Assembly (NCBI GenBank): GCA_022820665.1
Contig: JAJEFB010000052.1
Span: 62,001 to 126,000, forward strand
DNA length: 64,000 nucleotides
Direction of reading: 5' to 3'
Origin: Anaerolineae bacterium
GTDB lineage: Bacteria > Chloroflexota > Anaerolineae > Aggregatilineales > Phototrophicaceae
Part shown: in pieces, positions 11,873 through 16,377 of the stretch
How positions within the stretch are numbered: position 1 is the stretch's first letter
Layout: the number at the start of each line of letters is the position of its first letter
The notes under the pieces: generated by a model
What the model saw: the letters and a program-made list of their open reading frames with translations, nothing else
Databases searched by the model: none
What the model was told of the DNA's origin: nothing
Position numbers and translations under genes: made by a program

Positions 11873-13336
11873 ATGCCTTTGCAGATCTTCAACGTGTTAG
11901 GGCGCGAGAAACAAGCCTTCATTCCGATTCAAGACGGGCGCGTCGGCCTGTATGTCTGTGGGCCCACGGTCTACGAGCATTCGCATTTGGGACATGCCAA
12001 GACATACGTATCTTTTGACGTGGTGGCGCGTTACCTGCGTTATCGCGGCTTCGACCTGCTCTACGTGCAGAACATCACCGATGTCGGTCACTTGCGCGCC
12101 AACGAAGAAGACAGAATCCTTGTGCGGGCGGCGCAGCTCAATGCCAAGCCCATGCAAATTGTCGAGACCTATACGCGCAGCTATTTTGAAGATATGGACG
12201 CGCTGGGTGTGCAACGTCCGGATATTTCGCCACGCGCCAGCGGTCATGTGCCGGAACAGATTGAGATGATAGAAACGCTGATCGCCAACGGCAATGCTTA
12301 TGTCGCGGATGGCAACGTCTATTTCGATGTGCTCAGCGATGAGGACTATGGCAAATTGTCGAACCGGCGCGTACAAGAACAACAAGACGAATCTCGCGAC
12401 CTGGTCGGTGGAGACAAGCGGCATCCGGCTGATTTCGCGCTATGGAAGAAAGCCGAGCCGGAACACATCCTGCGCTGGAACAGTCCTTGGGGCGTCGGCT
12501 TTCCCGGTTGGCACATCGAGTGTTCCGCCATGGCGCAGAAGTATTTGGGGGCTAACTTCGATATTCACGGCGGCGGCATCGACAATATCTACCCGCATAA
12601 TGAGAACGAAATTGCCCAAAGCGAATGCGCCAATTGCCAGCCATTTGCCAATTACTGGATGCTAACCGGTAGCCTGAACGTGCTTGACCCCGACGAAGGA
12701 ATTCCGGTCAAGATGAGCAAATCGCTGGGCAATTATGTGACGATCAAAGATGCGCTGAACGCCTACCGCCCCCAAGAACTGCGCTATTTTATTCTGACCT
12801 CGCATTACAGCAATCCGGTTGTCTATAGCGAAGATGCGCTTGCTTCTGCCAAGTCCGGTTGGGAGCGCCTGATGAACGCGGTTAGGCTGGTGCGGCAACG
12901 CATGAACAGCGCAGGCGACGGTGATGCCGGCAGCGCTTTCTGCCAGCGGGTTGATCGCGCCAAAGAAGAATTCGCAAAAGTCATGGATGACGATCTTAAC
13001 TCGCCGCGCGGCATCGCCGTTTTGCAGGATTTGACGCGCGAAGTGAATACCTTGCTGAACAGTGATACTGAAGTGGGTCTGTATACGCTGGCGGCTATCG
13101 ACGAGGCCTACGCTTCCCTTGGCGGCGGGGTACTCGGTCTGGTGCCGGCGATTGAAGCGGGTGACAGCGGCGATGGACAGCGGGAGGCGGCTTTGATTGA
13201 AATGCTAATTGATATGCGAGCGCGGGCGCGGGCCGAGCGCGACTTCGCGCGCAGCGATCAGATTCGCGATCAGTTGGCCGGCTTGGGCGTCGTCTTGGAA
13301 GATCGCGCCGATGGGACGATTTGGAAGCTGACGTAA
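11873..13336 (+). CDS. cysS: Cysteinyl-tRNA synthetase
   Basis: 487 residues, the normal length for CysRS, a class I aminoacyl-tRNA synthetase that charges tRNA-Cys. The zinc-binding Cys lies in YVCGPTVYEHSHLGHAK, which also holds the HIGH-type motif; HIECSAM and HNENEIAQ give further zinc ligands, and KMSKSLGNY is the KMSKS loop. The C-terminal DALR-type helical domain is present. The start has GAGGAT upstream. In many bacteria cysS lies beside rlmB; here a restriction-modification pair separates them. Confidence 0.97.
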   Translation: MPLQIFNVLGREKQAFIPIQDGRVGLYVCGPTVYEHSHLGHAKTYVSFDVVARYLRYRGFDLLYVQNITDVGHLRANEEDRILVRAAQLNAKPMQIVETYTRSYFEDMDALGVQRPDISPRASGHVPEQIEMIETLIANGNAYVADGNVYFDVLSDEDYGKLSNRRVQEQQDESRDLVGGDKRHPADFALWKKAEPEHILRWNSPWGVGFPGWHIECSAMAQKYLGANFDIHGGGIDNIYPHNENEIAQSECANCQPFANYWMLTGSLNVLDPDEGIPVKMSKSLGNYVTIKDALNAYRPQELRYFILTSHYSNPVVYSEDALASAKSGWERLMNAVRLVRQRMNSAGDGDAGSAFCQRVDRAKEEFAKVMDDDLNSPRGIAVLQDLTREVNTLLNSDTEVGLYTLAAIDEAYASLGGGVLGLVPAIEAGDSGDGQREAALIEMLIDMRARARAERDFARSDQIRDQLAGLGVVLEDRADGTIWKLT

Positions 13337-13409
13337 TCATTTTTTCCAAGAGCCGGGCGCGTAGTGCTCCCTTCTCTTCTCTGCTCCCAGATCTGTTGAG
13401 GTAATTTCA

Positions 13410-14060
13410 TTGAAGAATCTCACCGTAACTGACATCAAACATGAAGCGAGTATATTTCTGCGCATCCTAAGTCAGCGCGGTGTCGACTCGTTGTTTGGCA
13501 AAAATGATGGCAAAGCCGTGGGAACTTTCGTTGAACACGAATTCCATGCATATTTGGGACGAGACTACAACTATGTCATAGGTAGTTCCGCAAGCGGTAT
13601 TGATTTTCCAGCACTTGGCGTTGACTTAAAGGTCACATCAACTCGCCAACCTCAGTCTTCTTGCCCGTATAGTTCCGCAGAACAAAAGGTATATGGTTTG
13701 GGCTACCATCTCATGGTGTTCGTGTATGATAAACGGGACGACATGGAGAGTGAACTCGCATACCTGAACTTTATCAACGCAGTTTTTGTTGAGGACAAGC
13801 GAACGGCTGACTTTCAGACGACAAGAGGTATCATTAGTATTCTTAACAACGGCGCTAACTTAGATGATATAGATGCCTTTCTAGAAGAGAGAAACCTTCC
13901 GCTTGACGATATTGGGCGTAGAATGTTGGCAGGGAGAATCGTAGAGGACCCGCCAATACAAGGTTACATTACCATTTCTAACGCGCTTCAATGGCGGCTT
14001 CAATACGCTCGAACCATTTCAGTTGCAGGTCAGGTAGATGGTGTGGACAGCATATTGTGA
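13410..14060 (+). CDS. Type II restriction endonuclease (PD-(D/E)XK type)
   Basis: A 216-residue protein read as a restriction enzyme from its fold motif and its partner. The candidate nuclease core is D65-x6-D72-L-K74 within GIDFPALGVDLKVTS, preceded by a helix with E42/E44; this arrangement (D...DxK) is the PD-(D/E)XK active site. It starts at TTG 13410 with TTGAGG upstream and overlaps the methyltransferase start by four bases (GTGA). Base composition is visibly AT-richer than the flanking genes. The recognition site is unknown, and I cannot match it to a named enzyme. Confidence 0.7.
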   Translation: MKNLTVTDIKHEASIFLRILSQRGVDSLFGKNDGKAVGTFVEHEFHAYLGRDYNYVIGSSASGIDFPALGVDLKVTSTRQPQSSCPYSSAEQKVYGLGYHLMVFVYDKRDDMESELAYLNFINAVFVEDKRTADFQTTRGIISILNNGANLDDIDAFLEERNLPLDDIGRRMLAGRIVEDPPIQGYITISNALQWRLQYARTISVAGQVDGVDSIL

Positions 14061-15586
14061 GCAAAAAAAAGATCCTTGGCGATTTCCAGACCCCCGTCCA
14101 ACTTGCGCGAAATGTTATTTCCAGGCTTTTTGCTGATGGGATTCACTGGGAACGTATTCTTGAACCAACATGTGGGCAAGGTAATTTCATTCGCGTATGC
14201 ATCGAACAGGGGGCTAGTGTTCGCGAGATAATTGGGCTGGAACTACAGCAAAGCTATGTAGAGAAGTCCAAAAGAATCAGCTCAGAAACGGTACAAGTGT
14301 CGATATACCAACAGGACATTTTCGACCTCAATTTAGCCACGTCGCTGCAATGGAATACCTTGTCGCCACTTCTTGTCGTTGGCAACCCTCCTTGGATAAC
14401 CAATGCAGAACAAGGGCGCTTAAACGGTAAGAATCTTCCAAGAAAATCAAATTTTCAAAAATTGTCCGGTCTTGATGCGATAACTGGCAAGTCGAATTTT
14501 GACATCGCTGAGGCTGTCTGGCTAAAACTCATTCGCGAATTTGTTAATGATCCCGTAACTATTGCTTTATTGTGTAAAACATCAGTTGCGCGCAAAGTTG
14601 CGCAATTCGTTTTAGACAACGAGTTGCATGTAAACAGTATGTCCCTATATCGCATTGAGGCGCAGAGATGGTTTAACGTTGCCGTTGATGCCGGTCTATT
14701 TGCTCTTGAACTCAACCAAGGTGATATTTCTTATGATGTTGCCGAATTCGATAATTTGCTGGATGCGCGTCATACAAGAACATTCGGATTTCATGGAAGG
14801 AAGATCGTCGCAGACTTAGATTCTTATCGCCAAGTTGAGAGTTTGGAGGGCACTAGTCAGCTTATATGGCGCCAAGGCGTGAAACATGACGCGGCAAAAG
14901 TTATGGAATTAACGTATCGAGATGGAATTTTAAGAAATGGATATGGAGATCTTGTCGAAATTGAAACGGACTATCTCTATCCACTCCTAAAGAGTTCAGA
15001 TTTGCAATCAATTTGCTTAGGTTTTGTACCCAGAAAATACGTAATAGTGACGCAAAAAAAAGTGGGTCAGCAGACTGTACATTTGCGTGATCATGCTCCA
15101 AAACTCTGGCGTTACTTGAACTCGCACACAGATCAACTAGACTCTCGAAAATCGAGTATCTATAAGAATGCTCCACAGTTTTCGATGTTTGGTATAGGAG
15201 AATACTCCTTTCAACCTTACAAAATTGTGGTTGCGGGCTTCTACTTGCCAGCACGATTCGTCGTGGTTTCTGGATATCAAGGCAAACAGATTCTTGTAGA
15301 TGACACATGCTATTCTTTGTCTTTTGATGAAGAGTGGGAGGCTCGCTTAATTTGTGCTCTATTGAATCACCCGGCGGTGAGTAAATTCCTAACGAGCATT
15401 ACTTTTGCGGATTCCAAAAGACCCATTACAAAGGGTGTGTTGGAACGCATAAACTTAAAAGCAGTCTATGATCAAGTGAACATTGATAAATTGACGAATT
15501 CTACCACCGACTCTTACGGCAAATCTGTTAATTGTGATCGGAGAAATGTTGAAATCCAATTGCGATTGTTTGAGGGCGATGAGTAG
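14057..15586 (+). CDS. N6-adenine DNA methyltransferase of a type II R-M system
   Basis: 509 residues from GTG 14057, which overlaps the nuclease stop codon. It has the gamma-class (TaqI-like) order: motif X FQTP (10-13), the AdoMet motif EPTCGQGNF (36-44) and the catalytic NPPW (110-113), followed by a long target-recognition region. It methylates adenine to protect host DNA from the adjacent nuclease. Codon use and base composition are AT-rich like its partner and unlike cysS and rlmB, which suggests the pair was acquired together. A longer frame begins at 13991 inside the nuclease gene but lacks family sequence there. Confidence 0.9.
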   Translation: MSKKKILGDFQTPVQLARNVISRLFADGIHWERILEPTCGQGNFIRVCIEQGASVREIIGLELQQSYVEKSKRISSETVQVSIYQQDIFDLNLATSLQWNTLSPLLVVGNPPWITNAEQGRLNGKNLPRKSNFQKLSGLDAITGKSNFDIAEAVWLKLIREFVNDPVTIALLCKTSVARKVAQFVLDNELHVNSMSLYRIEAQRWFNVAVDAGLFALELNQGDISYDVAEFDNLLDARHTRTFGFHGRKIVADLDSYRQVESLEGTSQLIWRQGVKHDAAKVMELTYRDGILRNGYGDLVEIETDYLYPLLKSSDLQSICLGFVPRKYVIVTQKKVGQQTVHLRDHAPKLWRYLNSHTDQLDSRKSSIYKNAPQFSMFGIGEYSFQPYKIVVAGFYLPARFVVVSGYQGKQILVDDTCYSLSFDEEWEARLICALLNHPAVSKFLTSITFADSKRPITKGVLERINLKAVYDQVNIDKLTNSTTDSYGKSVNCDRRNVEIQLRLFEGDE

Positions 15587-15615
15587 TTCTTCTCCAAGTC
15601 GGAGAGCGTTGAGCT

Positions 15616-16377
15616 ATGCCTGAATTTCTCTACGGGCATTGGGCGGTAATCGAGGCGATGCGCGCGGATCGGCGCAAGCTGGATGCGCTGATGATTCATG
15701 AACGCGCCGAAAAACGCGGTCCTGTCGGCGACGCCATGAGTATGGCGGAAGAGCTACAACTGCCGATTCAACGCGTGCAGCGGCGCATTCTTGATGACTT
15801 GGCAAGAAACGGCAATCACCAGGGCTTGGTCTTGCGCGTGGGACCTTATCCCTATTGCGACGTGGAAGAGATCTTGGGTACAGCCGCCCGCCGCAAGGAA
15901 AAACCCTTCATCCTTTTGCTTGACCTGCTCAAGGATCCGCAGAATGTCGGCGCCCTGATTCGCGTCAGCGATGCTGTCGGCGCGCATGGCATCGTGATCC
16001 AGGAGCGCCGCAGCGTGGCGGTGACGCCGGCCGTGGTAAACGCTTCATCAGGCGCGGTGGAGCATATCAACGTGGCGCAGGTGACCAACCTCGTCTCCGC
16101 CATGAAGGAACTGAAAGATCAAGACGTCTGGATGGTCGGGCTGGACGTGGGACATAACATCCCCCCGCTGGACAAAACCGACCTGAACATGGCGCTGGGA
16201 CTGGTGATGGGCAGTGAAGGCGAGGGCTTGCGCCGCCTGGTGCGCGATACCTGCGACCTCTTGTTGACGCTGCCGATGCGCGGCCAGGTAGGTAGCTTGA
16301 ATGTCGCGACCGCCGGCGCTATCGCGCTCTATTCCGCCTGGAGCGCCCGCGGCTGGAACGGCTGGGTCCACGCCTGA
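15616..16377 (+). CDS. rlmB: 23S rRNA/tRNA 2'-O-ribose methyltransferase, RlmB/TrmH family
   Basis: 253 residues of the SPOUT (SpoU) class. The N-terminal substrate-binding domain covers about 1-75 (FLYGHWAVIEAM). The trefoil-knot motifs follow: DLLKDPQNVGALIRVSDAVGA, then LVMGSEGEGL, then a conserved LPMRG..GSLNVATAGAIAL at the end. Such enzymes 2'-O-methylate a guanosine in 23S rRNA (RlmB) or related RNA targets. It sits 29 bases after the inserted methyltransferase. The placement next to cysS supports the RlmB reading. Confidence 0.9.
   Translation: MPEFLYGHWAVIEAMRADRRKLDALMIHERAEKRGPVGDAMSMAEELQLPIQRVQRRILDDLARNGNHQGLVLRVGPYPYCDVEEILGTAARRKEKPFILLLDLLKDPQNVGALIRVSDAVGAHGIVIQERRSVAVTPAVVNASSGAVEHINVAQVTNLVSAMKELKDQDVWMVGLDVGHNIPPLDKTDLNMALGLVMGSEGEGLRRLVRDTCDLLLTLPMRGQVGSLNVATAGAIALYSAWSARGWNGWVHA

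Follow-up and report, generated by a model that had tools for sequence, protein, structure and literature searches.

How does a type II restriction-modification (R-M) pair come to lie between the housekeeping genes cysS and rlmB, and how recently did it arrive there? The locus was found in the 4.56-Mb draft genome of an uncultured bacterium (G000), on contig C32, of which a 64-kb stretch, hereafter the window, was analysed. An earlier note had described a nuclease/methyltransferase pair at this place and had considered it a likely recent acquisition. We examined the two genes, the state of the same site in related genomes, and the divergence of the alleles found there.

The cysS-rlmB insert and its two genes

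The insert between cysS and rlmB measured 2,279 bp (13337-15615) and was filled by the genes of a restriction endonuclease (RE) and a DNA methyltransferase (MT) alone (Table 1). Both were uninterrupted ORFs in G000, and this was the single full-length MT copy of that genome. The earlier identification as a type II R-M pair between cysS and rlmB was borne out, with RE and MT matching curated families and the flanking genes matching TIGR00435 and TIGR00186; the GTGA overlap of the two genes was also found as described, with RE ending at 14060 and the GTG of MT located at 14057. No mobility gene was found inside 13337-15615 (no transposase or integrase; the ORFs were RE and MT), in agreement with the earlier reading, and no tRNA gene that could have served as an integration site was found within the window.

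Table 1. Coordinates of the features of the cysS-rlmB locus in the 64-kb window of G000.
Feature	Position	Strand	Evidence
cysS, upstream flanking housekeeping gene	11873..13336	+	TIGR00435, 492 bits (cut-off 340)
Leader spacer, cysS stop to RE start	13337..13409	+	Homologous in on-site carriers; absent in sister species and in the two off-site copies
RE, restriction endonuclease, 216 aa, TTG start	13410..14060	+	NCBIfam NF052465; PADLOC REase_II
MT, DNA methyltransferase, 509 aa from GTG	14057..15586	+	PADLOC MTase_II PDLC03310; motifs EPTCGQGNF and NPPW
Tail spacer, MT stop to rlmB start	15587..15615	+	Homologous among on-site carriers
rlmB, downstream flanking housekeeping gene	15616..16377	+	TIGR00186, 203.6 bits (cut-off 160)

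The GC content of the gap was 0.436, versus 0.565 for the window. This value was the minimum of 618 sliding windows of the same size taken within the 64 kb, and was 4.5 SD under the mean of 28 non-overlapping windows. The shift in composition started and stopped at the outer genes, cysS and rlmB, which confirmed that the pair is AT-richer and that the change is located near its ends. The hexamer TCCAAG, which had been pointed out near both outer ends, was indeed present at 15593, but the first copy was at 13345 rather than 13348. As a candidate flanking repeat it was rejected: 15 copies were counted on the + strand of the window, one of them at 14437, and the hexamer was not conserved among carriers. 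Its presence near both ends is best taken as chance.

RE matched the NCBIfam model NF052465 with 305.4 bits (cut-off 290) and PADLOC REase_II with 277 bits, while no Pfam match was obtained and a PDB sequence search with RE returned no match. In the alignment of seven homologs, the GIDFP and DLKVT segments were invariant, as were residues D65, D72, and K74, which may be the catalytic residues of a possible PD-(D/E)XK nuclease fold; the predicted RE model, built on this shallow 7-sequence alignment, had a pLDDT of 49. Relatives of RE were detected in 35 of the 396 genomes of the class, in 9 of 72,556 plasmid records, and in 1 of 50,697 phage records, and NF052465 matches were obtained in 18 of the 400 genomes of the phylum (12 above the cut-off). 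The relatives recovered by the nuclease search were uncultured Chloroflexota/Anaerolineae MAGs. A scan of viral contigs gave no relative, and our searches identified neither a characterised prototype enzyme nor a recognition site for the pair.

MT matched PADLOC MTase_II PDLC03310 with 455.7 bits, and none of the Pfam or NCBIfam models reached its cut-off. Its EPTCGQGNF (EPTCG.GNF) and NPPW segments, taken as the SAM-binding and catalytic motifs, were invariant or nearly so in the seven homologs. The predicted MT model had a mean pLDDT of 59.9, residues 9-250 being mostly confident except for 111-148. When this model was used in a Foldseek search, the type IIL enzyme MmeI ranked first and M.TaqI was within the best ten, the top matches being interspersed with rRNA adenine methyltransferases; sequence identity to the matches 5hr4, 2np6, and 2adm was low (12-14%), and a PDB sequence search gave weak TaqI matches only. 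The NPPW motif is presumably an amino-methyltransferase signature. Based on this motif and on the Foldseek matches, MT is most likely an amino-methyltransferase, the methylated base probably being adenine (N6). The nuclease would be expected to cut an unmethylated short DNA site, which the methyltransferase would protect in the host by adenine methylation, and translation of the two proteins may be coupled through the GTGA overlap.

Occupied and empty sites in the genus

Of the 34 genus genomes, all but G019 gave a strong full-length match to rlmB (33 genomes), and cysS adjoined rlmB in 32 of them; in G033, cysS was not found in the 11 kb fetched. The pair was present in the cysS-rlmB gap of five of these 32 genomes (G000, G008, G023, G009, and G017, the last of which was counted from two contigs that abut within MT). 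In the 27 others the gap was empty, with a length of 2-279 bp, and the sister species G016, G032, G021, and G020 exhibited empty gaps of 36-47 bp. Twenty further genomes of the order were also searched: cysS and rlmB were adjacent in 12 of the fetched stretches, separated by 5-166 bp and never by the pair, and the other eight had no cysS in the fetched stretch, some of these stretches ending at contig ends. The two genes had been said to be commonly adjacent, which holds in both the genus and the order; since the adjacency is common in the order, the R-M pair is an insertion. The earlier note had proposed that relatives be compared for a clean empty site, with a pair carried here by all of them as the contrary outcome, and the occupancy found corresponds to the former. 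The pair at cysS-rlmB is a clean presence/absence polymorphism in the genus.

MT was detected in seven of the 34 genus genomes. Two of these, G012 and G026, carried it at other sites, between unrelated genes, and their own cysS-rlmB gaps were empty (135 and 57 bp, respectively). These off-site copies (L082 on C6 and L083 on C8, respectively) belonged to the same R-M family and looked full-length.

Several other features were observed in these genomes. An imperfect inverted repeat, short and rich in GC, lay in the empty gaps of loci L089, L092, L095, L099, and L101, its ends resembling GTAGGGG and CCCCTACA; this repeat was common to many empty gaps of the genus and looked like a dispersed MITE/REP-like family. 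The gap of G006 (L100) exhibited an apparent tandem second copy of the cysS 3' end, with this repeat element behind it. G033 (L105, G033:C60:80000-91000) is filed in the same genus, and its genome was much larger, at 8.5 Mb, with a lower GC in rpoB (0.457) and rlmB (0.498).

Alleles, divergence, and a proposed route of transfer

In the on-site carriers, the pair was preceded by a leader of about 70-81 bp and followed by a tail of about 30 bp. Leaders were alike in eight of the ten carrier pairs (p = 0.0005, the floor with 2,000 shuffles), the likeness not being significant for G008-G009 and G008-G017; tails were alike in eight of ten as well (p < 0.05), with no significant likeness for G000-G023 and G000-G017. 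By inspection, no on-site leader was seen in the off-site copies of G012 and G026. In the RE+MT tree (seven sequences, midpoint rooting), the five on-site alleles formed one clade, with G012 next and G026 farthest, and G000 was joined with G008 as in the species tree. Shared spacers together with a single on-site clade make one insertion followed by spread simpler than repeated insertions. Moreover, homologous alleles and spacers occupy this gap in four further species of the genus, so that the insertion here predates the species of G000.

One of the five copies appeared to be degraded. In G017, MT was divided between the ends of two contigs (L081:8159-8294 and the terminal side of L080), and the break exhibited inverted, IS-like ends, with CTTATAAG repeated on either side. 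MT thus looks to be interrupted by an insertion sequence, the contig ends resembling the start and end of a transposase. The nuclease gene of the same genome (L073) carried an in-frame stop codon towards its 3' end, and by its sequence the G017 pair is a decaying copy. A live nuclease without its methylase is expected to be harmful to the cell, and the joint loss of both functions fits this expectation.

Synonymous differences were computed by a simple Nei-Gojobori method, with the reservation that the base composition of the pair differs from that of the comparison genes. The latter were taken from 113 ORFs of at least 200 aa, located in the window and on one 116-kb contig of G000, and were kept when their match reached 55% identity or more across at least 80% of their length; RE was removed from this set by an overlap filter and its values were computed separately. 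Between G000 and G008, MT differed by 0.34, versus a median of 0.22 and a maximum of 0.336 for 36 other genes. Between G000 and the more distant G023, it differed by 0.407, versus a median of 0.672 for 55 other genes, the lowest of which was at 0.331, so that the pair's value was not under every comparison gene. For RE, pS was 0.377 against G008, likewise higher than in any of the 36 genes, and 0.409 against G023. The ratio of the near to the far difference was therefore 0.84 for MT, versus 0.21-0.48 in the 30 genes measurable in both comparisons. Saturation is not the cause of this pattern, since the pS of RE reached 0.80 against G026. An excess of divergence from the near carrier together with a deficit from the far one excludes a single gene-specific rate and fits an exchange of RE/MT alleles between species. 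The species relationships used here rest on rpoB as proxy, in a tree of 32 genomes from which G024 (no usable rpoB) and G033 were left out.

The flanks and junctions were examined for traces of the route. Homology of the unit between carriers was sharply bounded by the stop of cysS on one side and the start of rlmB on the other. The cysS and rlmB sequences themselves followed species, and neither gene showed a clear tract of donor origin in the carriers. The only hint of one was that seven of the 27 sites private to G000 fell together in a single 100-nt bin of cysS, located 100-199 nt away from the junction (nominal p 0.028, corrected for 15 bins only), and six of these seven were common to an outside carrier. 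A mosaic test in RE+MT was significant in one of four quartets (p 0.005); it was of no help, as the rpoB control was significant too (p 0.01; cysS control, p 0.12). When leaders were compared with their own tails, one of the five carriers gave a significant result (p = 0.016 in G000), and no consistent terminal repeat was found. A target-site duplication derived from the native gap was not supported either: at the 0.05 level none of the 20 tail-gap tests was significant, and of the 20 leader-gap tests only three were, those of the G008 leader against the G016 gap (p 0.008) and the G032 gap (p 0.0015), and of the G017 leader against the G016 gap (p 0.012). The earlier statement that no flanking repeat could be made out therefore stands.

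Taken together, we favour, with a probability of about 0.7, an ordinary two-gene type II R-M system that was inserted once, long ago, between cysS and rlmB, in an ancestor or donor of the genus, and whose alleles the species would later have acquired, swapped with one another, or lost at this single site. The vehicle would likely be homologous recombination in the conserved genes on either side, as suggested by analogy with cases in the available parts of PMC4615327 and PMC5635113, and this is the most likely route given that the unit has no mobility gene. Post-segregational killing may have stabilised the pair. A purely vertical history, in which the pair was already at this site in the genus ancestor and disappeared repeatedly without ever being exchanged, would also account for the common site, the homologous spacers, the monophyly of the on-site alleles, the sister position of those of G000 and G008, and the visible decay in G017. 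We nevertheless consider it unlikely: the empty sites require many losses, and no single rate can yield both deviations that set the MT ratio apart from the 30 genes, saturation having been excluded by the RE comparison with G026. A single recent insertion into the G000 lineage from a distant donor agrees with the empty site in the four sister species and with the AT-rich composition; it is highly improbable in view of the homologous alleles and spacers that the four other carrier species have at the same site. Of the recent acquisition proposed earlier, the horizontal part is thus retained, on the basis of both divergence and composition, while the insertion at the site is older than the species; what is recent may be the arrival or replacement of an allele in the G000 lineage.

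Insertions could also have occurred independently at one preferred target, by a mechanism acting on the ends of the unit and mobilised in trans. The sharp junctions at the coding ends and the lack of a donor tract in the flanks are in line with this, as is the divergence of the flanks of distant carriers, which were about 78-82% identical at the DNA level; at such identity, homologous recombination would be expected to work poorly. We hold this explanation to be decidedly unlikely, as it is opposed by the lack of a transposase or integrase and of any supported terminal repeat or target duplication, by the missing leader in the off-site copies, and by the single clade of on-site alleles. It is very doubtful that the unit is an exact gap-to-gap cassette, running from the cysS stop to the rlmB start and moved between species by something other than ordinary flank recombination, a mechanism that would recognise the gap or the pair's own conserved spacers and would be driven by restriction-dependent selection with no mobility gene. 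An old insertion followed by exchange between species thus remains our preferred reading.

Comparison with known systems

Among known enzymes, MT resembles the N6-adenine methyltransferases of the M.TaqI/MmeI class in its fold matches and NPPW motif, a likeness to be read with the low sequence identity and with a model whose confident regions lie mostly in the N-terminal, catalytic half. The nuclease belongs to the same family as those of the NF052465 plasmid pairs of Aeromonas, Klebsiella, Nostoc, and Lacticaseibacillus, which also have the RE gene directly followed by the methyltransferase gene. In the four of nine plasmid records that were opened, the two genes overlapped by 4 bp (three records) or 11 bp (one record), and IS transposase genes were present nearby in two. 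In contrast, the pair described here is chromosomal and lies between housekeeping genes, and its RE is only 44-53% identical to the plasmid copies. Movement of an R-M system linked to an IS has been obtained in the laboratory, according to the portion available of PMC3031569.

Hotspots of gene transfer that lack mobile elements, and that owe their activity to recombination in the core genes beside them, are described in PMC5635113, in the sections available. As at cysS-rlmB, accessory genes are turned over there between two core genes with no mobility gene; these hotspots, as presented, gather many transferred genes, whereas a single cargo was found here, in a minority of the genomes.

A literature search returned no paper on the cysS-rlmB locus with an R-M system, which is weak evidence of its absence from print. 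The locus provides a clear natural case, in an uncultured Chloroflexota lineage, of an R-M system with two genes that is locked to one site yet horizontally exchanged. With 34 genomes of one genus, and with occupied as well as empty sites among sister species, it could be of help in examining how such systems are disseminated when no mobility gene is present. The nuclease family, the gene order, insertion between housekeeping genes, occurrence at the same locus, and exchange by recombination are all previously described, and the overall pattern has been published for R-M systems of other families.

The closest parallel is given by the PabI-family R-M systems of Helicobacter and Campylobacter. 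In the available text of PMC4615327, these occupy orthologous loci between housekeeping genes in several species, with alignable spacers, clean empty sites in relatives, insertions that replaced 4 or 62 bp, and decayed copies, and homologous recombination is proposed for their exchange. PabI is a DNA glycosylase and would be a different nuclease from RE. The pattern at cysS-rlmB matches that of its family in the use of the same gap by several species, the homologous spacers, the empty sites, the discordant divergence, and the decay.
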